Part shown: positions 3,182-18,982 of the stretch, one piece after another
Layout: each line of letters starts with the position of its first letter
How positions within the stretch are numbered: the first letter of the stretch is position 1
DNA from: an uncultured bacterium
Lineage (GTDB): Bacteria > Acidobacteriota > Aminicenantia > Aminicenantales > Saccharicenantaceae
DNA: 64,000 bases
NCBI GenBank assembly: GCA_937920515.1
Contig: CALEUG010000004.1
Span: 1 to 64,000, forward strand
Direction of reading: 5' to 3'
Made by a program: the position numbers and the translations under genes
The notes under the pieces: model-generated
What the model saw: the letters and a program-made list of their open reading frames with translations, nothing else
The model's database searches: none
Told to the model about the DNA's origin: nothing

Positions 3182-3625
3182 CTATTTTCCCCGGTCATTG
3201 ATAATTGATACTATTAATTCCAGGGCTGTCAGATAGCTTCTCCAGCCAAAACCGGCTATCAGGCCGGTGCAAACCGGGGCTGTAATGGTTGTGTTCCGGA
3301 ATGCTTCCCTGGCAAAAATATTGCTGAGATGAACCTCAATGGTCGGAATTTTTAAGTCGGCTAAAGCATCTCTCAAAGTATATGAATAATGAGTTAAGGC
3401 TCCCGGATTAATTATCAGACCATCCACCTTGCCAGCTGTTTCCTGTATTTTATCGATAAGATAGCCCTCATGGTTGCTCTGGAAAAAAAGGACCTCTACC
3501 CCGAGCTCAGACGCCCTGGACACCAGGCAATTTTCGATTTCAGATAAGCTCTTTAGCCCGTAAATGCTTCTATCACGTTCCCCGAGGAGATTGAGATTTG
3601 GTCCGTTCAGAATCAGTATTTTCAA
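3182..3625 (-). CDS. aroQ: 3-dehydroquinate dehydratase, type II
   Basis: This enzyme converts 3-dehydroquinate to 3-dehydroshikimate in the shikimate pathway. It is 147 aa, the normal type II length. The family N-terminus ILNGPNLNLLGERD is followed by a FFQSNHEG stretch, an INPGALTHYSY active-site segment and VEVHLSN. The start codon is TTG at 3625, supported by GGGAGG six bases upstream and by the exact match to the family N-terminus. It overlaps the end of aroKB by 53 nt, an unusually long overlap. It is the last gene of the trpE-to-aroQ operon. Confidence 0.93.
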   Translation of the reverse strand: MKILILNGPNLNLLGERDRSIYGLKSLSEIENCLVSRASELGVEVLFFQSNHEGYLIDKIQETAGKVDGLIINPGALTHYSYTLRDALADLKIPTIEVHLSNIFAREAFRNTTITAPVCTGLIAGFGWRSYLTALELIVSIINDRGK

Positions 3626-5174
3626 CGAGCACCTCCCTAAGAGAATCTTCTATTAATTTTCTTTCCACCTTTCTGATCACTATCCCTTTTCTGACATCGA
3701 AAAGAACGAAATCCAGGCCGGTGGCTGTTGACTTCTTGTCATATTTCATCAGATTAAAAATCTCCTCTTCTGCGGCTTCAATTTCTGTCCTTAAGCCCAA
3801 TTGCTGAAATATGTTTTTTATACGTTCCTTATAATTGCCGGGGTCCAGGCCCAGTTTCTCCGACAAACCAAGGGCGAAAACCAGCCCGAGTGCGACTGCC
3901 TGTCCGTGGGAAATTTTAAAACCAGAACAAGCTTCTATGGCATGCCCCAGGGTATGTCCTAAATTAAGCTGTTTTCTCAAACCGGATTCATAAGGGTCCT
4001 GCTCGACAATTTTCTTCTTTACCATCAGCGCTCTTAAAATTAAATCTTCTAATACCCTTACATCACGATTTTTTATCAGCTGGAGATTCTCTTCCACCAG
4101 GTCAATCAAACCCAAATCAGAGATGAGACCGGCTTTAATCACTTCCACCAGTCCCGAAGCCATTTCAGAAAACGGAAGCGAGTAAAGAAAAAAGGGATTG
4201 ACCATTACCAGTCCGGGTGGATAAAAAGTCCCCACGCAATTTTTAATATTCCCCAGGTTAATCCCAGTTTTGCCACCCAGGCAGGAGTCGACCATGGCCA
4301 GAAGAGTGGTTGGCAGGTGAAAATGAGTTATACCCCTTAGAATAGTAGAAGCCACAAAGCCACAGATGTCTCCAGCTACCCCGCCTCCTATCGACACCAG
4401 AATGGAATCTCTCTTGACTCCACTGGCCAATAACCAGCGCCAGATTGCCTCCACCTGTCTTAAATTCTTATGGCTGTCAGTTGCCGGCATTTCAAATAGC
4501 CTCTCGTTATTGAAGCCTAAAATATTCTTGTGATGCTTGAGCACCTGACGGTCAACCACAAAAAAGGCCCGGTCTTCAATAATTCTCATCATTTCTTCAT
4601 CTGACAATCTGATAAACCTCTTCAGGCTTAACCTCGTCCCGTCTGATCGCAGGTTCACCTCAAATCCGGTCAGCTCTTGATTTAAAAAGTCTTCTATCCT
4701 CTCGGCTACTTCCCGCACGGAAAGGCCGGTAATTTTGATTTTATTCGGGAGTTTCTGGTAGCCAGATAACCGTTCCCGGTAAAGTTTTATAAAATCCTCT
4801 ATGGTAAAGCCGTCAATCACCGGTCTTGTTGCTTCAGATTTCAACCTTGGCCAGATGCTTTCCGGCAAATCCTCAAGGCACAAGACTATCCCTGTCTTTA
4901 AAATTAACTCCAGGTTGACCTCATCCAGGAGTGTTTTTCCTCCAGTAGAGATCACCAGATCATTTTCTTCCCTGAATATTTTTCTGATTGCTTTTCTTTC
5001 AAGTTTCCGGAAATAACTTTCCCCGTAATTCTTAAAAATTTCTCGCACCGTAAGACCTGTTTCTTTCTCTATTAATTCATCTGTATCCAGGTGGTTTCGA
5101 CCGAGTCGCCTGGCCAGCAATCTCCCGACTGTGGTTTTGCCTGTGCCGATAAATCCGGTTATCACTACATTCAT
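3573..5174 (-). CDS. aroKB: Shikimate kinase / 3-dehydroquinate synthase fusion
   Basis: A 533-aa bifunctional protein. Residues 1 to ~165 are shikimate kinase: Walker A GFIGTGKTT at 7-15 and DTDELIEKETG for shikimate/Mg binding. Residues ~185-520 are 3-dehydroquinate synthase: GGGVAGD, the FASTILRG NAD-binding region, and zinc ligands in the EVIKAGLI, NLGHTLGHAIE and HGQAV segments. The two activities (steps 2 and 5) are not consecutive, but aroK-aroB pairs are commonly adjacent in bacteria. The start lies 13 nt after aroC ends, with only a weak Shine-Dalgarno. A short Ser/Arg-rich tail after the synthase domain overlaps aroQ. Confidence 0.93.
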   Translation of the reverse strand: MNVVITGFIGTGKTTVGRLLARRLGRNHLDTDELIEKETGLTVREIFKNYGESYFRKLERKAIRKIFREENDLVISTGGKTLLDEVNLELILKTGIVLCLEDLPESIWPRLKSEATRPVIDGFTIEDFIKLYRERLSGYQKLPNKIKITGLSVREVAERIEDFLNQELTGFEVNLRSDGTRLSLKRFIRLSDEEMMRIIEDRAFFVVDRQVLKHHKNILGFNNERLFEMPATDSHKNLRQVEAIWRWLLASGVKRDSILVSIGGGVAGDICGFVASTILRGITHFHLPTTLLAMVDSCLGGKTGINLGNIKNCVGTFYPPGLVMVNPFFLYSLPFSEMASGLVEVIKAGLISDLGLIDLVEENLQLIKNRDVRVLEDLILRALMVKKKIVEQDPYESGLRKQLNLGHTLGHAIEACSGFKISHGQAVALGLVFALGLSEKLGLDPGNYKERIKNIFQQLGLRTEIEAAEEEIFNLMKYDKKSTATGLDFVLFDVRKGIVIRKVERKLIEDSLREVLVENTDSERTKSQSPRGT

Positions 5175-5187
5175 TTTCGAAACCCGA

Positions 5188-6288
5188 TTATTTTAATTTC
5201 AGATTTTTTAAGTATGACCGGAAATTCCTGATTACTTCCTGGAGATTATCCCCACCGAATTTTTCCAGGAATAACCCGGCTATTTCCAGAGCCAGGACAT
5301 TTTCGGCCACTATTCCGGCTGCCGGCACAACACAGATATCGGTCCTGAGCTCCGGGGTTCGGGCCGGCTCCAGAGTTCGAAAATCAAAAGAATCCATCCT
5401 TTTCCTTAGGGTCGGAACCGGTTTAACCGTCAACCTGACGATTAATTCTTCTCCATTCGAAATTCCGCCTTCTATTCCCCCGGCCCTGTTGGTCCCCCTG
5501 CGGACTTTTCTTCCCCGTAAAATAATCGGGTCATTATTTTCAGAACCTCTGAAGACCACCTTCCCTATTTCCAGACCTTTGACCGCCGGAATGGAGAGCA
5601 GGGCTCCTCCAATTCTGTATTCAAACCTCCTGTCATAATGAACATGTGATCCCAGGCCGACCGGTAAACCCCTGGCTCTGACCTCTGTCACTCCACCAAC
5701 CGAATCGCCATTTTTTCTGGCTTCTTCGATCGCGAGCGTCATCCTCTTTTCTGCTTCCGGTTCAATACAGTATAAAGGCGAAGAAAATCGCCTCTGTTCA
5801 ATAAATTCAAAACTGTAGTCATAATTTCTAATGCTAATACCGGCAATGGCCACGGTATGCGAAACAAAGTTAATACCAAAATTCTCCAGGAAAGCCCTGG
5901 CCAGGCTTCCAAGAGCCACTCGAACGGAAGTCTCTCTGGCGCTGGCTCTTTCCGCCACCATATGAATATTTTCAAACCCGTATTTCAGACATCCGGCCAG
6001 GTCAGCATGACCCGGCCTGGGTACAAAATCTTCCAGTTCTTTAACATCGCTATTTCTGATAATTACAGCAATCGGGGCTCCTGTGGTTTTCCCGTTTCTC
6101 AAGCCGCTTATAATTTCAAATTCTTCAGACTCAAGTTTCATACGGGAACTTCGTCCCGAAGTATTTCTCCTGGCCTCCAGCTCCCTTTTAATTCTTTCCG
6201 GTTCAATCTTTACCCCGGCTACCATACCTTCAAGTATTCCAACCAGGTATTTACCGTGTGATTCCCCGGCCGTTAAATAGCGCAGCAT
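5188..6288 (-). CDS. aroC: Chorismate synthase
   Basis: This enzyme makes chorismate from EPSP using reduced FMN, the branch point to Trp, Tyr and Phe. The start is chosen at 6288 (MLRYLTAGESHG, 366 aa) because GGAGG lies seven bases before it; the ATG two codons upstream is too close to that site. Family motifs are visible: LTAGESHGK, GRSSRMKLE, FVPRPGHADLAG, ASARETSVRVA and GGIEGGISNGE. The length is normal. It lies in the operon 33 nt after aroE and 13 nt before aroKB. Confidence 0.94.
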   Translation of the reverse strand: MLRYLTAGESHGKYLVGILEGMVAGVKIEPERIKRELEARRNTSGRSSRMKLESEEFEIISGLRNGKTTGAPIAVIIRNSDVKELEDFVPRPGHADLAGCLKYGFENIHMVAERASARETSVRVALGSLARAFLENFGINFVSHTVAIAGISIRNYDYSFEFIEQRRFSSPLYCIEPEAEKRMTLAIEEARKNGDSVGGVTEVRARGLPVGLGSHVHYDRRFEYRIGGALLSIPAVKGLEIGKVVFRGSENNDPIILRGRKVRRGTNRAGGIEGGISNGEELIVRLTVKPVPTLRKRMDSFDFRTLEPARTPELRTDICVVPAAGIVAENVLALEIAGLFLEKFGGDNLQEVIRNFRSYLKNLKLK

Positions 6289-6321
6289 AGCCATACCTCC
6301 ATGAGTAATTCGGTTCTTTAT

Positions 6322-7194
6322 TTATTTTTTTTTATTTTTTTTCCCCCGAACCTGACTCTGCAGGCCGAACAGAATTTCGTAACCAGACCGCCATTCGCGA
6401 TATGAAGTTCTGATTCCGGTCCAGATTTTCAGGGACTCCAGAGCTTGAAAAAGCAACATGTCCACCCCGTTATATACAACGGCCTGAGCCTGGCAACCGG
6501 CCCGCATAAAATCAGTAAACGGTGGATTATATATCAGGTCGATAAAAATTTTGTTTTTTAAAATCAGTTTTCCCAGCCATTGAAACCCGGAATCCAGACC
6601 ATTCAGACCAACGGGAGTGGCGTTAACCAGGAGATCTGCTTCAGATGCCGCCTCTGTCAACCGTTCATCATACCAGCCCAGAAGATGCAGTTCCAAACAG
6701 GACGAAAAATCTTCTGAAAGCTTTTGTCCTCTCATAATTGAACGAACCGCCACAAAAATTTCCCGGCAGCCAGATTTATAAAGGCCGTAGATCACAGCCC
6801 GGCTGGCCCCTCCGGCCCCGAAAATCAGAACTTTCCGGATCGGAACCTTGATCTTCCTTAAAGACTTCTTAAACCCCACCCAATCTGTATTAAACCCAGT
6901 AAGATGCCCCCTGTCATTTTTTATCACATTGACGGCTCCGATGGTTCTGGCCGCCTCATCCACTTCATCAAGATAACTGATTACCTTCTCCTTGTAAGGA
7001 ATGGTCACGTTCAAGCCCTTGAAGTCCGAGCTTTTAAACTGACGAAAAAACCGGCCCAGGTCTGTTTCCGAAATCTCAATAAGTTCATAAGACATTGCCA
7101 GATTTCTGGCTTTACTCACGGCGGCAAAAAGTCCGGGTGACAGGGAATGGCCCAGCGGTTTTCCGATCAGCCCCAGTTTGATTTTTTTATCCAT
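6322..7194 (-). CDS. aroE: Shikimate dehydrogenase
   Basis: This NADPH-dependent enzyme reduces 3-dehydroshikimate to shikimate. The 290-aa protein shows GKPLGHSLSP near residue 11 (shikimate-binding Ser residues), NVTIPYKEKV with the catalytic Lys, GFNTDWVGF, and the nucleotide-binding FGAGGASRAV. It ends in a lysine-rich tail (GKKNKKK). It starts 3 nt after the aroA stop, with no strong ribosome-binding site, suggesting translational coupling. Confidence 0.93.
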   Translation of the reverse strand: MDKKIKLGLIGKPLGHSLSPGLFAAVSKARNLAMSYELIEISETDLGRFFRQFKSSDFKGLNVTIPYKEKVISYLDEVDEAARTIGAVNVIKNDRGHLTGFNTDWVGFKKSLRKIKVPIRKVLIFGAGGASRAVIYGLYKSGCREIFVAVRSIMRGQKLSEDFSSCLELHLLGWYDERLTEAASEADLLVNATPVGLNGLDSGFQWLGKLILKNKIFIDLIYNPPFTDFMRAGCQAQAVVYNGVDMLLFQALESLKIWTGIRTSYREWRSGYEILFGLQSQVRGKKNKKK

Positions 7195-7197
7195 TTT

Positions 7198-8478
7198 TTA
7201 TCCATCTGCAAGACGCCTGAAATCAGAAATAAACTCAGGGTAAGAAATGGACACACAGTCAAAGTCTTCAATTTCTGTGCTTCCGCCGGAAGTTATGGCC
7301 GCAGCCACCGTCATGGTCATGGCGATTCTGTGATCTCCAAAGCTTTTCAGCTTTGACGGCCGGAGTTCAGCTGGACCGGCAATTATCAACCCGTCCTCTG
7401 TTTCTTCCACGACCGCTCCCATTGCCCCTAAGTTCCTGGCCATGGCTTTCAACCGGTCGGTTTCCTTGAACCGTAATTCCCTGGCTCCGGAGATAATTGT
7501 GGTTCCCACGGCTCGGGTGGCCAGTAGAGCAATAAGGGGAATTTCATCAATCAGGCCTGGAATTTCCTCATCCTGAATCTGGGTTGATTTCAGGGCTGAA
7601 TGCTGAACACGAATATTTCCGACCTCCTCACCGCATTTGTATTCAAGGTCAAGTATTTCAACCCTGCCACCCATCCTTTTAATCACTTCAATAAGTCCGG
7701 TTCTGGTCGGGTTGAGATTTACTTTTTCAATTACCAGGTCCGAATTAGGGATAAGGAGAGCAGCCACCAGAAAAAAAGCAGCCGAGGAGAAATCTCCGCA
7801 AACCGAAATCTCGCCACCTTCTATTTCAATCTTGCCGGGCACCCTTATCAATCCATTTTCTCTGGTTATGCCTGTGCCCAGCCAGGAAAGCATCCTTTCT
7901 AAATGATCCCGGGACCTGATTGATTCTCTGATCACAGTAGGACCTTCAGCTCCAAGGCCGGCCAGGATAACAGCAGATTTAACCTGAGCACTGGGCACGG
8001 GCAGCTTGAAATCAATTCCGGTTAATGGTCCGCCCTTTATGGCTATAGGCAGAAGGGAATCACCGTTTCGTCCTGAAACCTTAGCCCCCATCCTGACCAG
8101 GGGCTCTACCACCCGTCGCATCGGTCTTTTTCTCAGTGACTGATCACCGCTTAAAACTGAAAAAAAAGGCTGACGAGCGAGAAGGCCGGTCAGAAGCCGG
8201 GCTGTCGTTCCGGAATTTCCACAATCCAGTATTTCTTCGGGTTCGCGCCATTCATCAGGGCTGATGACAATCTCTTTATGATTTATTTCTATTGGCTTCC
8301 CGAGCTGCTTTAAACATCTGATGGTGGAAAAAGTATCATCAGAGAGAAGAGGGTTTATGATTCGAAACCCTTTGGTGGCCAATGCCCCGACCAGAAGGGC
8401 CCGATGCGTTATGGATTTGTCCGGAGGGGGCAGGTACTTTCCCTTCAGTTTTCTGGCTTCAGAAACCAGCATTCTCAT
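7198..8478 (-). CDS. aroA: EPSP synthase (3-phosphoshikimate 1-carboxyvinyltransferase)
   Basis: Transfers enolpyruvate from PEP to shikimate 3-phosphate. The start is set at 8478 ([13 protein letters not shown], 426 aa): AAAGGAGG lies seven bases before it, inside the end of tyrA, giving a 20-nt overlap. Conserved motifs in order: PPDKSITHRALLVG, DCGNSGTTARLLTG, SLRKRPM, PSAQVKSAVILAGL, KETDRLKAM and DHRIAMTM. It lies between tyrA and aroE in the aromatic operon. Confidence 0.95.
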   Translation of the reverse strand: MRMLVSEARKLKGKYLPPPDKSITHRALLVGALATKGFRIINPLLSDDTFSTIRCLKQLGKPIEINHKEIVISPDEWREPEEILDCGNSGTTARLLTGLLARQPFFSVLSGDQSLRKRPMRRVVEPLVRMGAKVSGRNGDSLLPIAIKGGPLTGIDFKLPVPSAQVKSAVILAGLGAEGPTVIRESIRSRDHLERMLSWLGTGITRENGLIRVPGKIEIEGGEISVCGDFSSAAFFLVAALLIPNSDLVIEKVNLNPTRTGLIEVIKRMGGRVEILDLEYKCGEEVGNIRVQHSALKSTQIQDEEIPGLIDEIPLIALLATRAVGTTIISGARELRFKETDRLKAMARNLGAMGAVVEETEDGLIIAGPAELRPSKLKSFGDHRIAMTMTVAAAITSGGSTEIEDFDCVSISYPEFISDFRRLADG

Positions 8479-9307
8479 ACCATGACCTCCTTTTCTCCGC
8501 TTCGGCATTCAGGATATCAATGAGACTATCAATGCTTCCCTGTTCAATCATCAGCATCAACTCATCTATCCTGCTTTTCAGCAACTTGCTCAGGTTTTTA
8601 AGATTATCCCGGTTCGTCAGGAGAAGATCGTTTCCCATCATTCCGGGAGTCAACACCAGTCGAGTCGCCCCTAAAAAACCGGTCGAAACAAAATCATCCA
8701 CCTTTTGATTCTGCCCCCTTTTCTCCAGATAAATGGAGAAGAGAGCCAGGGAAATCAGATAGGGAAAATGACTGGTCAGAGCTGCCAGCAGATCATGTTC
8801 TTCGGCCGATATCTCAACCGGCAGAGCCTCAATTTTGACAACCACTTCCTTCACCTCTCTGAGTTCTTCTTTCCTGGATTCATCGGGGTAACAGAGGAAA
8901 AAAGGCTTGCCCCGAAACAGGTCAGGATTCCAGGCCATCTCCTCTCTTTTTACCGTACCGGCCATCGGATGTCCGCCCACAAATTTTGGGCGGGGAAAAT
9001 TTTTCATTTCAGCAATAATTTCCCTCTTGCTGCTGCCCGTATCCAGAACCACCTGATCAGAGCTCAGAACCGGTCCTGTTTTTCTTATAAGCTTTATTAT
9101 TTCTCTCACCGGCGTACTGAGAACAATTAGATCTGCTTTCTCAATTCCTCTGGATAAGCTAACGAATTCATCAAGTATTTTTCTGTAATGATGATTATTT
9201 CTAAGGTCATATCCATAAATTCTTTCAGCCACACCATTTTCCCTGAAGGCTCGAGCCAGAGAACCACCTATCTGCCCCAGACCGACTATAAATACTTCGG
9301 AAATCAT
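8459..9307 (-). CDS. tyrA: Prephenate dehydrogenase
   Basis: Oxidatively decarboxylates prephenate to 4-hydroxyphenylpyruvate, the Tyr branch (arogenate could be an alternative substrate). The 282-aa protein opens with the Rossmann motif [12 protein letters not shown], followed by [17 protein letters not shown] and [13 protein letters not shown] segments typical of TyrA. There is no C-terminal ACT domain, so allosteric Tyr inhibition by that route is not expected. No chorismate mutase domain is attached; that activity is in PheA. The start overlaps the aroF stop by ATGA. Confidence 0.92.
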
Positions 9308-10317
9308 GTTTCCCTCCCCAGGACCTGGCTCAAAGATTTAATTTCAGCCATCAGTTCTCTGAATTCAGCCAGGTTTAGAGATTGAAAGCCATCGCTTAAA
9401 GCAGCTTCTGGTTCTGGATGGACTTCAATTATCAGTCCATCCACTCCGGCGGCCACCGCCGCTCTGGCCACCGGCCCGACCAGGTCTCTTACTCCGGTGC
9501 CATGGCTTGGGTCAGCTATTACAGGTAGATGGCTCAATTTTTTTATAAGAGGGATGGCAGAAATATCAAAAGTATTCCTGGTATATTTTTCAAAAGTTCT
9601 TATACCTCTTTCACAAAGTATGACTCTGGAATTGCCGGCCGAAAGAATGTATTCGGCTGACATCAAAAATTCCTCGATCGTAGCCATCATCCCCCTTTTC
9701 AGGAGAACGGGCTTAGCCGTTCTGCCAATTTTATCCAGCAAAGAAAAATTCTGCATATTCCTGGCTCCAACCTGTAATATATCAGCCACCTGACTGACCG
9801 TTTCGATGTCACCGGCGTCCATAACTTCGGTTATCACGGCCATTCCGGTAAGCCTTTTGGCTTCTTCCAGGTATTCCAATCCTTTTTCTTTTAAACCCTG
9901 GAAGGAATAAGGAGAACTTCTTGGTTTATAGGCACCTCCCCGCAAAATCATAACTCCCATTTCTTTCAAGGCCTGGGCCGTTTCTAAAATCTGCTGCCTG
10001 CTTTCCACCGCGCAGGGTCCGGCCATTAATACCAGCCGGTTGTTACCTATCTCAACTTTACCGTTTATTCTTATTATTGTGTTCTCTGGCTTTATTTCCC
10101 GGCTGGCCAGCTTAAAAGGGCTCAAAATTCGCACCACCTTTTCCACAGCGGTCAGCTTTTCGAATTCTTCAATTTCCACCGGCGTTCTGCCAATAACCCC
10201 GATAATCGTTCTTTCTTTACCTCTGGAAATATGGGGTTTCAATCCTAACTGATTTATCCGGGTGATAACTTCCGAGATGGATTTTAAAGAAGCATCTGCT
10301 TTCATTACGATAATCAT
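9304..10317 (-). CDS. aroF: DAHP synthase, type I-beta with N-terminal ferredoxin-like domain
   Basis: Catalyses the first step: PEP plus erythrose 4-phosphate to DAHP. It is 337 aa. Residues 1 to ~70 form the ferredoxin-like (ACT-like) regulatory domain seen in Thermotoga-type enzymes. The barrel carries [11 protein letters not shown] (metal Cys), [21 protein letters not shown] and DPSHGTG. The start is supported by GGGGAGGATAG before the ATG. The N-terminal domain commonly gives Tyr/Phe feedback in this subclass; that is family knowledge. A 62-nt gap separates it from trpA. Confidence 0.93.
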
Positions 10318-10379
10318 TTCTATCCTCCCCGGTATTTTTTCTGACCTGTTAATCCTGCCATGATTGATTCTCTTTTAAG

Positions 10380-11207
10380 TCAGGGCTCCTCAATTGCTTT
10401 TTTTAGCTCTCGAAGGAATTCGGAAATTTCCCCGGTTCTGAAATCTTTTTCCCTGCCCATCATGACTTTGACCAGGGCACTTCCCACTATTATTCCGTCA
10501 ACTTTTCGGGCCAGATGCCCCGCCTGTTCTGGTTGACATATTCCAAAGCCAGAATAAACTGGTTTGGAAGTAATGCTTTTGATCTGGCTAACTTTTTCTT
10601 CCAGGTTCGGGTCGAACTTTTCCCCGGGGCCCGTCACCCCGTATCGCGAAACCAGATATATAAACCCCTCCGAAGCCAGGACTATTTGTTTCATCCTGGG
10701 AAAGGAGGTGTTCGGGGCCACCATCAGGATTACAGAAATTCCAGCCGCCCTGAATATTCCATCAAGAAACTCGAGTTCTTCGCAGGGAAGGTCGGCAAAA
10801 ACAACTCCCTCAATTTCATGCTCGGCCAGTTTATCGGCAAAGGCTTTAAAGCCAAATCGATAAACCGGATTGAGATAGCTCATAAAAACCAGAGGCACTT
10901 TAATTTCCTTCTTGAATTCCGGCATAAACTCCAGAAAACTCTTTAAAGAAAATCCACGTTCCAAGACCCACTCTGAAGAATGCTGAATATACCGGCCATC
11001 GGCGATCGGGTCAGAAAAAGGTAACCCGATTTCAATCAGGTCAGCACCCGCTTCCTGGGCCGCCAGCAATAACTCAACAAATTTATCTCTGTCCGGATAG
11101 CAGGCCGTAAAAAACGGGACAAGCACTTTTCTTCCGCTCTTTTTTTTCTCGAAGGTTATTGTTTCGAGTCTGTTCCTTTTTCTCTCATTCATTATTCTTT
11201 TTTCCAT
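10380..11207 (-). CDS. trpA: Tryptophan synthase alpha subunit
   Basis: Cleaves indole-3-glycerol phosphate to indole, which passes to TrpB. The 275-aa protein has the catalytic EIGLPFSDPIADG segment (Glu and Asp), VPFFTACYPD, and the phosphate-binding GFGI and VGSALVK. The start at 11207 lies in the tail of trpB (23-nt overlap) with GGAGG six bases upstream. An extra lysine/arginine-rich stretch of about 15 residues precedes the usual family start; an internal ATG at 11192 is possible. Confidence 0.93.
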   Translation of the reverse strand: MEKRIMNERKRNRLETITFEKKKSGRKVLVPFFTACYPDRDKFVELLLAAQEAGADLIEIGLPFSDPIADGRYIQHSSEWVLERGFSLKSFLEFMPEFKKEIKVPLVFMSYLNPVYRFGFKAFADKLAEHEIEGVVFADLPCEELEFLDGIFRAAGISVILMVAPNTSFPRMKQIVLASEGFIYLVSRYGVTGPGEKFDPNLEEKVSQIKSITSKPVYSGFGICQPEQAGHLARKVDGIIVGSALVKVMMGREKDFRTGEISEFLRELKKAIEEP

Positions 11208-12369
11208 CCATAACCTCCCGGTTTTTTAAGTCTTTAAGCCCGCTCCCCGAAAGATTAACCACGGCAATCCGGTCAGAGGTAAAATTTCGATGTTTATCGA
11301 GCCAGGCCAGGGCATGGCAGGATTCCAGAGCAGCGATGATTCCTTCCCCTGAAGCTATTTCCCTGAAAGCTATTAAAGCCTCCTCATCGGTCACGCCGCT
11401 AACTTCTATTCTTCCCTTTTGCACCAGAAAGGCTATCTCCGGACCCACCCCGGGATAATCCAGTCCGGCCGAGATAGAATATGAATTTAAGACCTGGCCT
11501 TCATCATCCTGAATAAAGCGCGTATAAGCTCCATGAAAAATTCCGGTTTGCCCCCGCAAAAGGGAAAGGGCATGGTGGCCGCTGCTGCTACCCTTACCGG
11601 CAGCTTCCACACCGATAAGCCTGACTCGATCCTCACTCAGAAAAGGGTAAAAAAGACCGATAGCATTAGAACCACCTCCTATGCAGGCCACAAGATAATC
11701 AGGTAATCTTCCTTCTTCCTTTAATACCTGCTTCTTGGTTTCCAGGCCTATAACCGATTGAAAAGTCTTTACTATCAAGGGATAAGGATGCGGCCCCACG
11801 GCAGAACCCAGCAGATAATAAGAATCTTGAGGGTGGGCGGCCCAATCGCGCATGGCCTCACTGGTGGCCTCTTTGAGGGTTTTAGAGCCTGCAGAAACTT
11901 CCACCAGCTCTGCCCCGAGCAGCTCCATTTTCCTCACATTTTCACTCTGCCTTTTTATATCCCTTTCACCCATATAAATCGTGCAATCAAAGTTTAAGAT
12001 GGCAGCCACCGTGGCCACGGCCAGACCATGCTGTCCGGCACCGGTTTCAGCAACTAATCTTTTTTTCCCCATTCTTCGGGCCAGAAGGGCCTGTCCGAGA
12101 CAGTTATTGAGCTTATGGGCTCCGGTGTGATTGAGGTCTTCGCGCTTTAAATAAACCTTTAAACCATATCTCCTGGAAAGATTGCGGGCCAGATATAAGG
12201 GAGTCGGCCGTCCACAGTAGTTTTTAAAATAAAAATCCAGCTCTTTTTTGAAATCTCTGTCCCGTCGCGCAGCCAAAAAAGCCCGCTCCAGCTCAAGCAA
12301 GGGCTCCATCAGAGTTTCCGGGACAAATCTCCCCCCGAACTGGCCATATTTAGTTTTTGACAGTCCCAT
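11185..12369 (-). CDS. trpB: Tryptophan synthase beta subunit
   Basis: PLP enzyme that condenses indole with serine. It is 394 aa, normal for TrpB1. It shows YGQFGGRFVPETLM at the start, the PLP lysine in NHTGAHKLNNCLGQ, ETGAGQHG, the PLP-phosphate loop CIGGGSNAIG, and GLDYPGVGPE. GGAGG precedes the ATG by eight bases. Its beginning overlaps the end of trpF by 61 nt. Confidence 0.95.
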   Translation of the reverse strand: MGLSKTKYGQFGGRFVPETLMEPLLELERAFLAARRDRDFKKELDFYFKNYCGRPTPLYLARNLSRRYGLKVYLKREDLNHTGAHKLNNCLGQALLARRMGKKRLVAETGAGQHGLAVATVAAILNFDCTIYMGERDIKRQSENVRKMELLGAELVEVSAGSKTLKEATSEAMRDWAAHPQDSYYLLGSAVGPHPYPLIVKTFQSVIGLETKKQVLKEEGRLPDYLVACIGGGSNAIGLFYPFLSEDRVRLIGVEAAGKGSSSGHHALSLLRGQTGIFHGAYTRFIQDDEGQVLNSYSISAGLDYPGVGPEIAFLVQKGRIEVSGVTDEEALIAFREIASGEGIIAALESCHALAWLDKHRNFTSDRIAVVNLSGSGLKDLKNREVMDGKKNNE

Positions 12370-12953
12370 TTTCTTATCCTCCAGACAAAATCTTTCATTT
12401 TTTCAGGATCTTTTTTGCCCGGGAAACTTTCCACTCCTGAGCAGACATCCACGCCAAAAGGCTCTACCAGACGAAGGGCTTCAACGATGTTTCCCGGATT
12501 CAGGCTACCGCTGAGAAAGAACCGGCCGGCGTTCTTGAGTTCCCTGGCTATCGACCAGTCGAAAGGTTCACTTTTTACCGCTGAATCAAGAAGGAAAAAA
12601 CCCCGGCCCAGAGATTTAATCTCCGGAAGGTTTGGCTGTGTTCCTATCTTAAATGCTTTAAACCATTTACACTTAAGGCCGCGCACATATTCTTCGCCTT
12701 CATGACCGTGGAGTTGAACCAGGTCCAGAGCTAAATCCCGATAAACCTCTTCCACCAGAGCTGCTGGCTCATCAACAAAAACACCGACTCTTATCAACCA
12801 CGCTGGCAGATGCTGAATTATTTTTCGGGCGCACCCAACACTTATTTTTCTCTGGCTTTCTGAAAAAATAAAACCGATGGCCTCAACTCCCAGGCTCAAG
12901 GCCAGAAGTGCATCCTCCAGATTGGTAATCCCGCAGACTTTAATCCTGGTCAT
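12309..12953 (-). CDS. trpF: Phosphoribosylanthranilate isomerase
   Basis: Third step of the Trp branch (PRA to CdRP), a 214-aa TIM barrel. It has KVCGITN with the catalytic Cys, EAIGFIF, VGVFV, VQLHG, and the catalytic Asp in GVDVCSGVE. The tail is longer than usual because it runs 61 nt into trpB (WDCQKLNMASSGG...). The start overlaps the trpC stop by ATGA. Confidence 0.93.
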   Translation of the reverse strand: MTRIKVCGITNLEDALLALSLGVEAIGFIFSESQRKISVGCARKIIQHLPAWLIRVGVFVDEPAALVEEVYRDLALDLVQLHGHEGEEYVRGLKCKWFKAFKIGTQPNLPEIKSLGRGFFLLDSAVKSEPFDWSIARELKNAGRFFLSGSLNPGNIVEALRLVEPFGVDVCSGVESFPGKKDPEKMKDFVWRIRKWDCQKLNMASSGGDLSRKL

Positions 12954-13711
12954 GCTGATAGCCCCCCAAGAAGATATTTAATTGTGGAATCAAGATCTTC
13001 CGCCTCCATAAAAATGCTCCCAATCAGGAAGCCATCAGCTCCGTTCTGTTTAAAAAAGCGTATATCTGATGGCGTTTTTAAGCCGCTTTCTACAATTCTT
13101 ACCTCTCCAATCTTTCTTTGCAGCACCTGCTCCAGAACCTTTTGCCCCCGTCTTAAATCAACAGACAGGTCATGCAAATTCCTGTTGTTAACACCCACGA
13201 CCTTAATCGGCAGACCAGCGATCTCATCTACTTCTATAACAGAACTAACTTCCACCACCGGTTCCATTTCTAACCTCCGGCAGACTTCAAGCATAAGGGA
13301 AAGACGTTCCCCGCCGAGCAGTCCGGCGATAAGAAGTATACTGTCCGCTCCAGCATTGCGGGCTTCAACCACCTCATGAGGATGGATAAAAAAGCCCTTT
13401 TTGAGAACGGGAAGGGAAACAGCTCTTCGTATTTCCATTAAGTCCTTTTCCCCGGTTAAAAAATAATTTTCGTCAACCACAACCGAGACTGCCGAAAAAT
13501 TCGCTTTCTGGTAGGCCAGGGATACTTCAGCCGGGCTTAAAGACAGCTTGAATTTACAAACAGGAGTGGCTCTCTTAAATTCTCCTATTATTCCATTTTT
13601 ACTTTTAATAAACTGCACCAGAGATAAAGGTCTGGTCAGGTTTTTCAGCTCCACTTTTTTCGGAAATGATTTTATTTCCAGTTCTTGTCTTACCTTGTGC
13701 AAAAAACTCAT
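12950..13711 (-). CDS. trpC: Indole-3-glycerol-phosphate synthase
   Basis: Ring-closing decarboxylase of the Trp branch, a 253-aa barrel. Segments IIGEFKRATPV, SAVSVVVDENYF, PVLKKGFFIHP, DSILLIAGLL, EVSSVIEVD, VGVNNRNLHDLSVD and VESGLKTP follow the family order with the catalytic Lys/Glu positions. It overlaps trpD and trpF by four bases at each end, indicating tight translational coupling. Confidence 0.93.
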   Translation of the reverse strand: MSFLHKVRQELEIKSFPKKVELKNLTRPLSLVQFIKSKNGIIGEFKRATPVCKFKLSLSPAEVSLAYQKANFSAVSVVVDENYFLTGEKDLMEIRRAVSLPVLKKGFFIHPHEVVEARNAGADSILLIAGLLGGERLSLMLEVCRRLEMEPVVEVSSVIEVDEIAGLPIKVVGVNNRNLHDLSVDLRRGQKVLEQVLQRKIGEVRIVESGLKTPSDIRFFKQNGADGFLIGSIFMEAEDLDSTIKYLLGGLSA

Positions 13712-14721
13712 TTTTTCCTCTCGTTGAATTTCATAAAAGCAGTCAGTTTTATAAAGGCCCTTCCTGAATCAACAACTTCAGAAGCCTTCTCCACTCCCTC
13801 TTTAATATCAGCCGCCAGCCCGGAGACAAAAATTGCGGCACCGGCATTAAGAAGGACATAATCCCGGTAAACAGATTTTTCTCCTTTAAGAACACTGAAC
13901 AGGATTTTAAGACTATCAGTCATAGAGTTGATTTTAATGTCGCCGGCAGAAGGTCTTATTCCGAATTCCTCGGGCAATATTAACATCTCTCTCAACTGAT
14001 CACCTTCAACCAGCAGAGCAAAGCTCGGGGACTGAGCTGATATTTCATCCAGACCGTCCTGAGAATGAACCAGAAGATATCTCTGCCCGCCGAGCAAACG
14101 GAGCACTCCGGCTGAAACCTCCATGGCCTTCCGGTTGAAATATCCTATCAACTGCCTTTTAACTCCTGTCGGATTAAGCAGAGGCCCCATCAGGTTAAAA
14201 ATAGTTTTTATACCCAGCTCCTTTCTGATGGGCTGGATCTTTTTCATCTGAGGCTGAAAATATGGGGCATGGATAAATCCTATACCCACTTCCTCAATAG
14301 AACTTTTAATTTTTTCCGGGGAATCAGCGATTTCCACCCCAAGCCCTTCAATTAAGTCCGTACTGCCGCAGATACCGGAGATGGCCCGATTACCATGCTT
14401 GGCCACTCTGGCTCCGGCGGCGGCCACCACAAAGGAAGCTATGGTTGAAATGTTGAAGGAATGGCATCCATCTCCCCCGGTACCCGCCAGGTCGACCAGG
14501 TTTTCATGCTCTATTTCTATTCCAATAGACTTTTCTCTGAATACCTTGACAAATCCAGCAATTTCTTCAGCTGCTTCTCCTTTGGTCCTCAGCCCGGCCA
14601 GAAGCCCTGAAATTTTTATAGGATTTATTTCTTCTTCCACAAGTTCCTTGGCAATCCTCTGGGCCGTGGACAAATCCAGATTTTTGCCTTCGCAGATTGT
14701 CCTTAAAGCTTCTTCAACCAT
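13708..14721 (-). CDS. trpD: Anthranilate phosphoribosyltransferase
   Basis: Attaches phosphoribose to anthranilate. The start is placed at 14721 (MVEEALRTICEG, 337 aa), which has GGAGG five bases upstream and overlaps the trpG stop by 8 nt. Upstream in-frame ATGs would add 16 unlikely residues inside trpG. The PRPP-binding DLAGTGGDG, the KHGNRAISG loop, and the FMFAPxxHPA-equivalent FIHAPYFQPQM are visible. TrpD is not fused to TrpG here. Confidence 0.93.
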   Translation of the reverse strand: MVEEALRTICEGKNLDLSTAQRIAKELVEEEINPIKISGLLAGLRTKGEAAEEIAGFVKVFREKSIGIEIEHENLVDLAGTGGDGCHSFNISTIASFVVAAAGARVAKHGNRAISGICGSTDLIEGLGVEIADSPEKIKSSIEEVGIGFIHAPYFQPQMKKIQPIRKELGIKTIFNLMGPLLNPTGVKRQLIGYFNRKAMEVSAGVLRLLGGQRYLLVHSQDGLDEISAQSPSFALLVEGDQLREMLILPEEFGIRPSAGDIKINSMTDSLKILFSVLKGEKSVYRDYVLLNAGAAIFVSGLAADIKEGVEKASEVVDSGRAFIKLTAFMKFNERKK

Positions 14722-15292
14722 TTTTCCTCCCCAGTTCAAAAAAATTCCTGAGAAGTTTTCGACCTTCAAAGGTTAAAAATGATTCCGGATGAAACTGAAC
14801 TCCTTCAGTCAGGGTTTCTTTTACCCTCAGACCCATAATTTCTGCCTCAGCCGTATAAGCCGATATCTCCAGTTCAACCGGTAGAGAATCCTCATCCACA
14901 ATCAAAGAATGATATCTGGTTGCTTCAAAGGGATTGGAAAGGTCAAAAAAAATTGTTTTGTTATCGTGAAAAATTTTTGAGGTTTGGCCATGTAGAATTC
15001 TGGAGGCGGGAATAACTCTGGCTCCAAAGGCCTGGGCCAGACACTGATGCCCCAAACAGACCCCCAAAATCGGGACCTGCCCTGTAAATTTCCTGATAAC
15101 CTCCAGACACAGTTCAGCCTCTACAGGATGACCAGGCCCGGGGGAAATGACGATATAATCCGGCGAAAGCCTGAGTATCTCTGCCAGGCTGAGCTCTCCT
15201 CTTCTCCGCACCAGAACCGGTTCATTGAACAGACAAAATTCCTGATAGAGGTTAAAGACAAAGGAGTCATAATTATCTATGATGAGAATCAT
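14714..15292 (-). CDS. trpG: Anthranilate synthase component II (glutamine amidotransferase)
   Basis: Supplies ammonia from glutamine to TrpE. The 192-aa protein has the class I amidotransferase triad: Cys79 in GVCLGHQ, with His and Glu in QFHPES, plus the oxyanion PGPGHP. It might also serve p-aminobenzoate synthesis (PabA); no pabB is in this window. Its start overlaps the trpE stop by ATGA. Confidence 0.93.
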   Translation of the reverse strand: MILIIDNYDSFVFNLYQEFCLFNEPVLVRRRGELSLAEILRLSPDYIVISPGPGHPVEAELCLEVIRKFTGQVPILGVCLGHQCLAQAFGARVIPASRILHGQTSKIFHDNKTIFFDLSNPFEATRYHSLIVDEDSLPVELEISAYTAEAEIMGLRVKETLTEGVQFHPESFLTFEGRKLLRNFFELGRKNG

Positions 15293-16728
15293 ATTTCCCT
15301 CCTGTTTTCAGCCAGCTGAACGGCCTGGACCAGAGCGGCTATCTTATTTCTGATTTCTTTATATTCGTGTTCTGGAACTGAATCGAACACTATACCGGCC
15401 CCACCCTGAATTTCGAACGAACTGCCCTGGCAGATAATCATTCTGATACCGATACAAAAATCGAGCTGGCCGTTATCGCTCAAATAGCCGACCGCTCCTC
15501 CGTAAGGTCCTCTGGAGACCGGTTCAAGTTCATCAATTATCTGTATGGCGCGCAATTTCGGAGCTCCGGTCACCGTGCCCGCCGGAAATGTGGCCTGAAT
15601 AATGTCAAAAAAAGTGGTACCCGGTCGGAGCCGGCCCTCAACCCGGGAAACCATATGCATCACATGGGAATATTTTTCCACCTTCATCTTCTCAGGAACA
15701 ACCACCGAACCGGGAAGACAGATTTTCCCCAGGTCATTCCTGGCCAGGTCAATCAGCATTATATGTTCAGCCCGCTCTTTTTTATGGTTCAAAAGCTCTG
15801 CCTCGAGCCGGACATCCTCCAGAGAGTTTTTCCCCCTTCTCCTGGTTCCGGCAATAGGGCGGATAATTGCCTTTTCATCAGCTACTTTAACATGCGATTC
15901 CGGAGAGGAACCTATCAACTGAAAACAGCCAAAATCAAAAAAGAACATATACGGCGAGGGGTTAATAATTCTCAGGGCCCGGTAGATTTCAAAAGGTTCA
16001 ACTTCCGTCCTGCCTGAAAATTTAATTGATAAAACCGTCTGAAAAATCTCGCCCAGTTTTATGTACTCCTTAGCTCTACAAACCCGGTCGATAAATTCCT
16101 CAAAAGAGAGACTGCAGTCCAGCGGGCGAGAATGGTCTGAATTTTCATAATTAAATAAAGACAGAACCAGCTGACTGGCCAGGACTCTCTTGATCGAAGA
16201 AATGAAATTTATAGCACTAACTTCATCTGACCTGTCCTGAATGATTATGAGATATCCGGTGTTTTTAACCTGATCAAAGACCAGCAGCCGGCTGGTGCGG
16301 AAAAAGTTGACCAGGGGCAGAGACAGGTCTTTGTCCCGGAGATTGATCTCATCAAGAAAAGAAACAAATTCATAAGAAATATATCCGGCCCAGCCGCCGA
16401 TAAAGGGAATATTTTCCAATCCAGGGATAAAATTATTTTCAACGGATTTATATTTAAATACTTCATTCCAGACCTCTCTGATATTGCTTTTCTTAATCGG
16501 GCTGGAGTCTCTTCCGATCTTCAGTTCATTACCTTTAATTACAATCTTTTCCTGAGCTGAAAAACCGATGAAGGAAAAACGCCCGGCTTTTTCTCCAGAC
16601 TCAACACTTTCCAGAAGGAAAACAGCCCCATGCTTGCGCAGGAGCATAAAGGCTGAAACCGGAGTATAAAGATCAATCGGAACCTTTTCCCAGATCACTA
16701 ACTTACTGCCGATATCAATTACCTCCAT
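15289..16728 (-). CDS. trpE: Anthranilate synthase component I
   Basis: Converts chorismate to anthranilate with TrpG, committing it to Trp. It is 479 aa. The N-terminal LLESVESGEKAGRFSF contains the LLES Trp-feedback motif. The C-terminal chorismate-binding domain shows SPSPYMF-like INPSPYMFFF, IRPIAGTRRRG, EHIMLIDLARNDLG, TFPAGTVTGAPK and GGAGIVFDS. The conserved Trp-binding motif suggests allosteric inhibition as well as attenuation. GGAGG lies four bases before the ATG, directly after the terminator T-run, so readthrough places the ribosome site free. Confidence 0.95.
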   Translation of the reverse strand: MEVIDIGSKLVIWEKVPIDLYTPVSAFMLLRKHGAVFLLESVESGEKAGRFSFIGFSAQEKIVIKGNELKIGRDSSPIKKSNIREVWNEVFKYKSVENNFIPGLENIPFIGGWAGYISYEFVSFLDEINLRDKDLSLPLVNFFRTSRLLVFDQVKNTGYLIIIQDRSDEVSAINFISSIKRVLASQLVLSLFNYENSDHSRPLDCSLSFEEFIDRVCRAKEYIKLGEIFQTVLSIKFSGRTEVEPFEIYRALRIINPSPYMFFFDFGCFQLIGSSPESHVKVADEKAIIRPIAGTRRRGKNSLEDVRLEAELLNHKKERAEHIMLIDLARNDLGKICLPGSVVVPEKMKVEKYSHVMHMVSRVEGRLRPGTTFFDIIQATFPAGTVTGAPKLRAIQIIDELEPVSRGPYGGAVGYLSDNGQLDFCIGIRMIICQGSSFEIQGGAGIVFDSVPEHEYKEIRNKIAALVQAVQLAENRREI

Positions 16729-16737
16729 TTTTCCTCC

Positions 16738-16775
16738 AAAAAAAAAGACCCACCTGTTGGCTTAACAGGTGGGTC
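16738..16775 (-). terminator. Attenuator terminator of the trp/aromatic operon
   Basis: A perfect 12-bp GC-rich stem (arms 16764-16775 and 16747-16758) with a 5-base loop is followed on the minus strand by nine Ts (16746-16738). It ends ten bases before the trpE ATG. The 5' arm GACCCACCTGTT is region 3 and the 3' arm AACAGGTGGGTC is region 4 of the attenuator. Confidence 0.95.
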
Positions 16776-16818
16776 TCGGGATTTCCTGTTTCAGAGGGTC
16801 TCGAGGCTTACGGAAATC
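16776..16818 (-). promoter_or_regulatory. Attenuator spacer stem supporting the antiterminator
   Basis: Region 2 (GGGTGGGTC, within 16818-16832) can pair either with region 1 inside the leader ORF (GACCCACC, within 16861-16874) or with region 3 (16764-16777). Between regions 2 and 3, GATTTCC and GGAAATC also pair (7 bp) and would stack under the 2:3 helix, bringing the two arms together. This is pairing done by hand. Confidence 0.8.
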
Positions 16819-16896
16819 TCACCGACCCACCCTCTTCATAAACCAATACCAGTAGTATCGGTGCAGGTGGGTCTGGCTAAAATTTCTAAGCCTCAT
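16819..16896 (-). CDS. trpL: trp/aromatic operon leader peptide (YYWYWF)
   Basis: A 25-codon ORF. Residues 14-19 are Tyr-Tyr-Trp-Tyr-Trp-Phe, all aromatic, encoded just after attenuator region 1 and before region 2; the stop codon lies inside region 2. A ribosome stalled for any aromatic aminoacyl-tRNA would mask region 1 and free region 2 to pair with region 3 (antiterminator). Translation to the stop covers region 2 and lets the terminator form. Its ATG lies 11 nt after the -10 box, so the mRNA has almost no 5' UTR. The frame is open upstream to 17025, but the promoter lies inside that extension. Confidence 0.92.
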   Translation of the reverse strand: MRLRNFSQTHLHRYYWYWFMKRVGR

Positions 16897-16906
16897 TTCG
16901 CTTCGG

Positions 16907-16934
16907 ATTATATAAAAATAAACTGGTCTGTCAA
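16907..16934 (-). promoter_or_regulatory. Promoter of the aromatic supra-operon
   Basis: On the minus strand TTGACA (16934-16929) and TATAAT (16912-16907) are both perfect consensus hexamers with a 16-bp spacer. The expected start site is near 16900, four or so bases before the leader-peptide ATG. Confidence 0.92.
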
Positions 16935-17074: not shown

Positions 17075-17173
17075 ATGCCAAGCAGACCGTTACCGGAAAT
17101 GAAACAGATTAATAGGTTATTTGCCCGCTCTTATTTTTACTTTAGCTACGGAGAAGGCTCTGGCCCTCCGTAA
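17075..17173 (+). CDS. pheL: pheA leader peptide (YFYFSY)
   Basis: A 32-codon ORF with a modest AGGAAA site 7-8 bases before its ATG. Residues 20-25 are Tyr-Phe-Tyr-Phe-Ser-Tyr (17132-17149). Directly after these codons TACGGAG (17147-17153) pairs with CTCCGTA (17166-17172), the 1:2 hairpin, and the stop codon lies at its end. GGCTC-TGGCCCT (from 17156) can instead pair with AGGGCCA-T-GAGC at the terminator's 5' arm, with one bulged base. Stalling at the Tyr/Phe codons would favour this antiterminator. An internal ATG at 17099 is an alternative start. Confidence 0.88.
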   Translation: MPSRPLPEMKQINRLFARSYFYFSYGEGSGPP

Positions 17174-17195
17174 CGGATATAAATCTGGAGGAAAA

Positions 17196-17232
17196 GGGCC
17201 ATGAGCTGGAAGAGCTCATGGCCCTTTTTTTT
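17196..17232 (+). terminator. pheA attenuator terminator
   Basis: A perfect 12-bp stem, GGGCCATGAGCT (17196-17207) with AGCTCATGGCCC (17213-17224), has a GGAAG loop and is followed by eight Ts (17225-17232). It lies between the leader ORF and pheA, about 20 nt before the pheA start. Confidence 0.94.
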
Positions 17233-17252: not shown

Positions 17253-18356
17253 TTGAAAAGCTCATCCCGGATAAATATTTTAACTGCGAAAAACAATTCA
17301 GCCCTTAAAGAAATCAGACAGGCCATCGATGCCCTGGATGAAAAAATACTGAGATCAATCGAAGAAAGAATGTCCCTGGCCTTAAGATTGAGTCGCCTTA
17401 AAGACAGAATCTCCGACCCTCAAAGAGAAAAACAGGTCTTGAACCATTTCAAAAACCACGCCGGTCCGCTGCTTTCAGAAAAATTCGTGGTCGGACTGGC
17501 CCTGGCTCTGATCAAAGAAAGCAAATCGTTACAGGGCCGAAAGTTTAAGCTGATCGGTTTCCAGGGCGAAAAGGGGGCTTACAGTGAAGAAGCTGCCTTG
17601 AAATATGACCCGCAGCTCATTACCATGCCCTTCCTGGAATTTAAAGAGGTGTTTGATGGCGTCTCCAGTAATTTTCTGGATTACGGCATTGTCCCGGTAG
17701 AAAATTACACCGAAGGACAGGTATCCGGGGTCGGAGACCTGCTTATCACCAGCCATCTGAAGATTGTGGCTGAAATCAATTATCCTGTTCATCACTGTCT
17801 CCTTGGTGTTTCTGGAACTGATCTGGCTCAAGTCAGGATAGTGTTTTCTCATCTCCAGGCTCTCGGGCAATGCCGGGATTTTCTCCAGAAATATAACATT
17901 GAACCAAAACCATTTTATGACACAGCCGGGGCAGCCAGGATGCTGGCCGAAAGACAGCTGAAGGAAGCCGGGGTAATAGCCAGCAAAAAATGTGCCCAGA
18001 TTTACGGACTCCAGGTCTTAAAAGAAAACATTGAAGACTTCCCCGGAAACCGGACCAGGTTTCTCATCATCAGTAAAGAGGGCCTGACTGAAGGAGCAAA
18101 ATGTTCGGTGGCCTTTTCTCTAAAAAATGAACCCGGGGCCTTAAGCCAGATTCTTCTTCCTCTGGCTAAAAGAAAAATTAATTTGACCAGACTGGAATCC
18201 AGACCGAATAAGAATCATCCCGGTGAATATTTTTTCCTGCTTGATTTTGAGGGTTCCTTGTCCGAAGAAAAAATAAGGACCTCCCTCCAAGAATTAAAAA
18301 AAAGAAGTCTCTTTTTTAGATTTCTCGGCTGTTATCCGGTTTTTAATCAACTTTAG
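17253..18356 (+). CDS. pheA: Chorismate mutase / prephenate dehydratase (P-protein)
   Basis: A 367-aa bifunctional enzyme of the Phe branch. Residues ~18-95 are an AroQ-type chorismate mutase (IRQAIDALDEKILRSIEERM). Residues ~100-275 are prephenate dehydratase, starting FQGEKGAYSEEAA and ending with the NRTRF signature. An ACT domain follows (NEPGALSQIL, LTRLESRP), the usual Phe-inhibition site. The start codon is TTG at 17253 with GAGGAGG five bases upstream. It is probably the only chorismate mutase here and would feed TyrA as well. It sits divergent from the aromatic operon, behind its own attenuator. Confidence 0.95.
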   Translation: MKSSSRINILTAKNNSALKEIRQAIDALDEKILRSIEERMSLALRLSRLKDRISDPQREKQVLNHFKNHAGPLLSEKFVVGLALALIKESKSLQGRKFKLIGFQGEKGAYSEEAALKYDPQLITMPFLEFKEVFDGVSSNFLDYGIVPVENYTEGQVSGVGDLLITSHLKIVAEINYPVHHCLLGVSGTDLAQVRIVFSHLQALGQCRDFLQKYNIEPKPFYDTAGAARMLAERQLKEAGVIASKKCAQIYGLQVLKENIEDFPGNRTRFLIISKEGLTEGAKCSVAFSLKNEPGALSQILLPLAKRKINLTRLESRPNKNHPGEYFFLLDFEGSLSEEKIRTSLQELKKRSLFFRFLGCYPVFNQL

Positions 18357-18754
18357 ACTTTCCAGCGTCGCCTTATCTCCCTGTCCCTGGCTATCAGAAA
18401 TTTAGCTTCTTATAAAAAACCGGCTTAGAAGAGAAAACTCCCCGGGGACGTTTTATTTTTCAGAATGATACAAATTTTGTTAAGGTTGAAAATATTTCCA
18501 TTAAATTTATCCCTTTACCGGGTCAGAGCCCTGCTGAAAAAACGGTAAAATCCAGGTATTCGAGTATCTTTATCCTGAAGCTGAAGGGTAACAGAATAAT
18601 TCCCTGCGCTGCCATTTTCACATTTATAATCAATTATTTTTGTTGCTTCTTGAAAAAAAACAAATTATCAATAAATCCACTTGATGCCCTGGCTATATGA
18701 AACCTGGAAATCAACGGTGCCTGCCCGCTCGGTCACAAACAAAACTTCGTCCGC
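18357..18754. other. Intergenic, nothing recognised
   Basis: About 400 nt between pheA and the his promoter. No ORF with a ribosome site and no strong terminator was found. Confidence 0.4.
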
Positions 18755-18783
18755 TTGACATAAAACCAATTATGCTGTATAGA
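18755..18783 (+). promoter_or_regulatory. his operon promoter
   Basis: TTGACA (18755-18760), a 17-bp spacer and TATAGA (18778-18783) lie about 200 nt before hisG. A short ORF (18794-18853, 19 codons) opens ten bases after the -10. The 190-nt leader can form a long-range stem between TTAATTTCCCG (18868-18878) and CGGGGAATTGA near 18920-18930, with G-U pairs. No terminator-like T-run follows a stem. Confidence 0.7.
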
Positions 18784-18982
18784 TAAAATCATCATGAAAG
18801 GCAAAACAGAATATTACATCAAGTATTGCCTGACCAGAACCTGCCTGCATTGACCCTGACCTCCTCTTAATTTCCCGCCAGAGTCCTGAGCATTATCTTT
18901 TTCTACTGTCCAGGATTTAACGGGGAATTGATAACCGACTTTTTCTCTCTCCAAACTAATTCGTCTTAAAGGAGGTAAGGAC

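Follow-up and report, generated by a model that had tools for sequence, protein, structure and literature searches.

A putative leader-peptide attenuator with codons for several aromatic amino acids before a trp/tyr/aro operon

We analysed a stretch of 64,000 nucleotides (here called the window) from the genome of an uncultured bacterium (G000). Upstream of a 14-gene operon for aromatic amino acid biosynthesis it carries an element that we read, with a probability of about 0.88, as a ribosome-mediated attenuator of transcription; its leader peptide would be multivalent for aromatic amino acids, with a codon mix set by the products of the operon. We observed the parts of such an attenuator, their conservation and covariation in related genomes, and a correspondence between the leaders and the operons behind them.

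The operon lies on the minus strand. Its first gene, trpE (15289–16728; Pfam Anth_synt_I_N and Chorismate_bind), is followed by trpG-trpD-trpC-trpF-trpB-trpA-aroF(DAHPS)-tyrA-aroA-aroE-aroC-aroKB-aroQ (3182–15292). Gene coordinates together with domain assignments, made for nine window proteins, agree with an earlier note on this DNA, which had described 14 genes comprising Trp genes, tyrA and the common shikimate pathway: all seven trp genes are present, as are DAHP synthase, tyrA and genes for all other shikimate steps, including a fusion of aroK and aroB (aroKB). The operon makes Trp and Tyr, and overlaps and short gaps between its genes suggest that it is transcribed as a single unit.

Leader peptide and competing RNA structures

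A sigma-70-type promoter (16907–16934, minus strand) matches the consensus at 12 of 12 positions, with TTGACA at 16934–16929 and TATAAT at 16912–16907 separated by 16 nucleotides, and is the only perfect site of this kind in the window. The leader ATG lies 10 nt downstream of the −10 box, a spacing that may make for a nearly leaderless mRNA. The leader ORF (16819–16896, minus strand) has 25 codons and reads MRLRNFSQTHLHRYYWYWFMKRVGR before its stop codon, with RYYWYWFMKRVGR as its C-terminal part; homologous leaders occur in seven other elements. This short ORF 3' of the promoter is rich in codons for the products of the operon. Its control codons TAC TAC TGG TAT TGG TTT (YYWYWF; 16840–16857, minus strand) specify three Tyr, two Trp and one Phe. 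Among ATG-initiated ORFs of 12–40 codons in the window, only the leader contains six consecutive aromatic residues, and no such ORF arose in 40 first-order shuffles of the window. Promoter, ORF and run are thus as the earlier note had described them.

Folding of the minus-strand transcript gave the competing structures that this note had proposed to look for. Region 2 (GGGTGGGTC, 16824–16832), within the end of the leader ORF, can pair with region 1 (GACCCACC, 16866–16873), as it does in the minimum free energy fold, or with region 3 (16777–16764). Region 3 in turn can pair with region 4 (16758–16745), forming a hairpin (16745–16777) of 14 bp with a 5-nt loop next to a run of nine T (16738–16746). 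Regions 1–4 are complements of the GACCCACC/GGTGGGTC type. The pairings 1:2, 2:3 and 3:4 are mutually exclusive, region 3 is common to terminator and antiterminator, and 3:4 is a rho-independent terminator. Sequence and folding thus bear out the two competing stems and the nine T of the earlier description, and correct it in two details: the terminator was given as 12 bp, and the distance from the T run to trpE as ten bases, where it is nine (ATG at 16728). With each segment folded alone, the antiterminator is the more stable, at −27.2 kcal/mol versus −23.7 kcal/mol for the terminator.

Two further helices emerged from folding that the first description lacked. An outer stem joins leader codons 2–4 (helix 0, 16887–16894) to a segment after the stop codon (helix 0', TAAGCCTC, 16803–16810) and stacks on 1:2 as a protector in the minimum free energy fold. 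The antiterminator has a second arm beyond 2:3, formed by x (GATTTCC, 16812–16818) and x' (GGAAATC, 16780–16786). The 0' and x arms adjoin, which makes protector and antiterminator alternatives.

Pairing in both the antiterminator and the terminator was compared with shuffles on an alignment of five genomes. Standard pairs occupy 95.6% of antiterminator cells (shuffled, 91.0 ± 2.2) and 96.4% of terminator cells (shuffled, 89.3 ± 2.2), and sliding the partner by one column lowers both to 46–58%. Compensatory changes are few overall, the five-pair core of 2:3 being invariant across the alignment; each structure has three doubly changed pairs, all of those in the antiterminator lying in x:x'. The arms of 0:0' vary in sequence between genomes while keeping their complementarity, as judged by eye in G003, G013, G119 and G434. 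In seven of the eight elements, region 2 begins 10–11 nt 5' of the stop codon.

Ribosome placement in a folding model

When the entire transcript was folded at equilibrium with the ribosome masking its site, stalls past the second Tyr codon gave no useful information, because region 1 paired with region 2 across the ribosome; with such pairing allowed, no antitermination is predicted beyond Y15 in G000. We consider such pairing sterically unlikely, since few bases flank the ribosome. We adopted a model in which the ribosome is placed at each codon in turn and only the RNA downstream of its edge (+15) is folded. In G000 the probability of 2:3 is then 0.98–0.99 for stalls at Y14 to W18, the first five codons of the run, falls to 0.63 at F19 (0.40 with the edge at +17), and is 0 at K21 and all codons after it, including the stop. 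G003, G012, G119 and both elements of G434 (G434a and G434b) follow a similar course, from high values along the run to zero at the stop codon, and the runs of the relatives end where masking of region 2 begins. In the downstream-only model, a ribosome on the run thus frees region 2 and one at the stop codon masks it.

We propose the following mechanism. RNA polymerase would start at or near the leader ATG with a ribosome following. When charged tRNA-Tyr and tRNA-Trp (and, with weaker effect, tRNA-Phe) are plentiful, the ribosome would reach the stop codon and cover region 2, leaving regions 3 and 4 to form the terminator before trpE. A shortage of any of these tRNAs would stall the ribosome in YYWYWF, where it bars region 1 from pairing and leaves region 2 free; region 2 would then pair with region 3, and x with x', so that no terminator forms and the 14-gene operon is transcribed. 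Untranslated RNA would adopt 0:0' and 1:2, making termination the default. The kinetics of the switch, its OR logic and the relevance of Phe in vivo are inferred.

The earlier note had suggested that the leader averages the supply of Tyr, Trp and Phe. This is probably wrong: in the folding model one stalled codon of the run suffices, which is closer to an OR gate for any shortage, as in ilvGMEDA. Its further view, that the leader reads all three aromatic amino acids, is strongly supported as regards an attenuator of mixed specificity and holds less well for Phe; Tyr and Trp dominate the run, and the single Phe codon at its edge is absent from the runs of G003 and G119. Phe is probably the weakest of the signals.

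Related elements and their codon sets

Relatives were sought through TrpE searches (trpE is present in 9 of 60 relatives) and with a four-leader covariance model. Seven homologous elements were found beyond that of the window: in G003 (MCKWLKDIEMTHLYWYYWYWYAQRVGR), G013 (MLKEFTPTHQYWYYWYWFMLRVGR) and G012 (MAKMLKEYTPTRQYWYFWYWYTMRVGW) of the same genus, in G434 (G434a, MKQTVSCMCRFWWHKRTGL; G434b, MKIKQASFYYRLFWRFRRTGL) and G053 (MQKESGRKQIQRNTHPYYPLYYYYYYF) of another family of the same order, and in G119 (MGERERKIIILINSEIHPRYYYWWYMRVGL) of another family of the same class. Those outside the model-building set scored E-values of 3.7e-8 (G434b), 3.9e-13 (G012), 2.2e-5 (G053) and 1.2e-6 (G013). 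All eight elements have a promoter with 10–12 of 12 matches and a 16-nt spacing, and in six the ATG lies 8–10 nt past the −10 box, so that translation may be nearly leaderless there, start sites being predicted. The earlier note had named loss of the aromatic run with retention of the stems as one observation that would refute its reading; when we looked for it in the relatives, all seven elements kept the run, and their stems show some compensatory changes.

Some of these loci are incomplete in the assemblies. One terminator arm is missing at both G013 attenuators (L003, near 1400 and 700–800) and in G053 (L164, near 8390); strong hairpins may have suffered losses in the library or during assembly, or the arms may be truly absent. 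In G012 (L162, 1535–1962) the attenuator is intact and the entire trp/aro operon behind it is absent: the gene next to the element is the one found beyond the operon end in the window, so the operon is missing, either by a recent deletion or by an assembly join.

Wider searches yielded little of this type. Weak model matches in G463, G017, G044, G410 and G454 (E > 0.2) are taken as chance, the two examined having no aromatic leader. In G018 and G019, trp operons lie next to aroC and lack an attenuator element of this kind. The pattern TAYTAYTGGTAYTGG gave ten matches over 396 genomes of the phylum, with a leader of this type only in G000 and G003; the other matches fell within larger ORFs, or in short ones where the context of this leader is lacking. 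TrpE relatives in a whole-genome collection were mostly from Chloroflexota (39–46% identity). In 80 regions upstream of such relatives the covariance model had no match, and a scan for ORFs dense in aromatic codons returned WWW-type leaders from several loci in gammaproteobacteria and few candidates otherwise. A second leader type, apparently unrelated, was seen before trpE in L096 (G052), L098 (G041) and L141 (G472) and before pheA in L144 (G018); its sequences are FFSFWLWAGSAAA, LWSWAVPAAR, WWWAVHAAL and FYFSSYYFQAPAA, with an aromatic run, an Ala-rich end, a GC hairpin over the ORF end and no clear terminator.

The codon sets of the homologous elements largely match the aromatic amino acids that each operon serves in its genome. 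G003 and G119 have the runs YWYYWYWY and YYYWWY; their operons follow the gene order of the window with an aroH-type chorismate mutase added, and prephenate dehydratase (PDT) was found in neither genome, nor CM_2 in G003. The aroH-type gene (CM_1) lies between trpA and aroF (L093 of G003, 12365–12748; L139 of G119, 11990–12397), inserted there in both genomes that have no detected CM-PDT. The leader of G053, YYPLYYYYYYF, has no Trp codon and precedes aroF-tyrA-aroA-aroE-aroC-aroKB-aroQ, in a genome where we found pheA and neither trpE nor a true trpB. In G434, where PDT is present and tyrA was not found, G434a reads RFWW, without Tyr, before trpEGDCFBA-aroF, and G434b reads FYYRLFWRF, with all three aromatics, before aroA-aroE-aroC-aroKB-aroQ alone. 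In G013 the contig breaks off after trpEGD, and a second contig carries both trpB and tyrA; pheA is divergent in G013 and in G012.

When each leader was scored for W, Y and F and its genome for trp genes, tyrA and PDT, 20 of 21 cells agreed in presence or absence, a value equalled by 3 of 630 reassignments. This post hoc comparison ignores kinship, covers seven elements (G012 left out), three of them from one genus, uses a pathway profile defined after the leaders were known, and relies for gene absences on metagenome-assembled genomes that are 87–96% complete. The sole mismatch is G434b, with two Tyr codons in a genome where tyrA was not found. Phe codons are present in every one of the five operon-bearing elements whose genomes have PDT; the two elements from genomes where PDT was not found have none.

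The region upstream of trpE also holds, back to back with the trp/tyr/aro element, a predicted Phe/Tyr attenuator (17075–17232) that had not been noted before. On the plus strand, a leader ORF (17099–17173, with a further in-frame ATG at 17075) reads MKQINRLFARSYFYFSYGEGSGPP before its stop codon and contains the run YFYFSY; G012 and G013 have the homologous leaders SYFYYFYFSF and SYSYFYYFRY. It is followed by a strong terminator hairpin with a T run (17196–17232), recognized from the sequence and from ribosome-placed folding and with a counterpart in G012, and then by pheA (17253–18356; chorismate mutase, prephenate dehydratase and ACT domains by domain assignment). In G000 and G012, the model predicts the same stall and stop behaviour as for the trp attenuator. 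Besides PheA, no chorismate mutase (CM_1 or CM_2) or PDT was found in the G000 genome, so PheA would serve both Phe and Tyr, which fits a Phe/Tyr leader. The his operon of the window has no His-rich leader; 5' of hisG (about 18740–18860, plus strand) lie a promoter-like site with TTGACA and an ORF of 19 codons, MKGKTEYYIKYCLTRTCLH, which is not His-rich.

How much of the aromatic run is actually read may be asked separately from whether the element attenuates. It is possible, rather than probable, that a real attenuator senses Trp and/or Tyr only, with a Phe codon that is passive and kept by ancestry or position. The single Phe of the run sits where masking of region 2 sets in, with the intermediate 2:3 probabilities given above, and the leaders of G003 and G119 do without Phe; moreover, the Phe-Tyr-Phe leader AroR of C. 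glutamicum has ineffective Tyr codons (PMC11802643), so the presence of a codon is no proof of sensing. The distribution of Phe codons nevertheless follows that of PDT, and G434b has three of them.

Explanations in which the peptide is not read at all fare worse. In most elements the TAC/TGG run forms a local fold of its own (−9.1 kcal/mol for G000 and −9.3 for G003) and could be a pause hairpin in the loop of 1:2 with incidental amino acids; we hold this to be very unlikely, as G053 keeps YYPLYYYYYYF without any hairpin, synonymous TAC/TAT changes are frequent, and codon identity follows pathway content. That the hairpins belong to a riboswitch, a T-box or a switch bound by a TRAP-like protein, with an ORF that is not the sensor, is scarcely credible here, even if many aromatic operons elsewhere are under such control: what is conserved is the ORF, the stop-codon spacing and the competing stems, and no Rfam regulatory family matched at its gathering score. 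At that score the window gave only a tRNA, with the Trp leader and the other curated families unmatched; low-threshold matches were far below the gathering scores of their families and included nothing relevant.

We consider it reasonably probable that one ancestral attenuator was re-coded before differently assembled operons, its codons spelling the aromatic amino acids that can be made and acting on the entire shikimate pathway as an OR gate. The codon sets would then be Tyr, Trp and Phe; Tyr and Trp; Tyr and Phe; mainly Trp; and all three for the common pathway alone. As far as we searched, such re-coding of one element across operons would be new. Branched pathways pose a control problem in that common steps must answer several end products, and the solution in the window seems to be encoded in about six codons. 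In the natural variants a different gene set comes with a different codon set on an unaltered RNA switch, a ready experiment for exploring how multivalent attenuators balance one signal against another. Leader codons might also help to predict auxotrophies of uncultured bacteria.

Comparison with known attenuators

With E. coli trpL the element shares a leader peptide, regions 1–4, a U-run terminator and control of trpE, as well as antitermination upon stalling and termination with the ribosome at the stop codon. It differs in that trpL reads Trp alone, whereas the run in the window consists largely of Tyr and Trp codons and is placed between regions 1 and 2 instead of inside region 1, and in that the window operon adds tyrA and the shikimate pathway. 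The divergent pheA leader is the counterpart of the Phe leaders of E. coli pheA (pheL, before CM-PDT) and pheST but, unlike them, mixes Phe and Tyr in similar number. In ilvGMEDA and thrABC of E. coli, textbook cases of multivalent attenuation, a single leader covers more than one of the amino acids that the operon serves; these are branched-chain amino acids or Thr and Ile, whereas the window leader reads aromatics. We know of no case in which such a leader occurs as one RNA element re-coded before different operons.

In the literature, ilvGMEDA and thr are counted among the attenuated operons (PMC1183508), and the trp leaders of actinobacteria contain UGG repeats (PMC1262725). A table from 2005 (PMC1173090, Table 7) lists putative attenuators upstream of tyrA supraoperons, with aroA'-aroB'-pheA-aroF-tyrA-trp of Desulfovibrio vulgaris as an example; they share with the window operon a predicted terminator and antiterminator before aromatic genes, and the word 'leader' is absent from that paper, so leader peptides are not described there. 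The earlier note knew of no mixed aromatic leader. One does exist in AroR, which precedes the DAHP synthase gene aroF (Neshat 2014, according to PMC11802643) and responds to limitation of Phe, not of Tyr; AroR has no Trp codons, and neither trp genes nor a shikimate supraoperon is mentioned there. A leader with Tyr and Trp, or with a Tyr run, was not found in searches of the open-licence literature. As judged from its sequence, the window element is a classical leader-peptide attenuator that is multivalent for aromatic amino acids, and its most notable feature is that one element has apparently been re-coded in line with pathway content.
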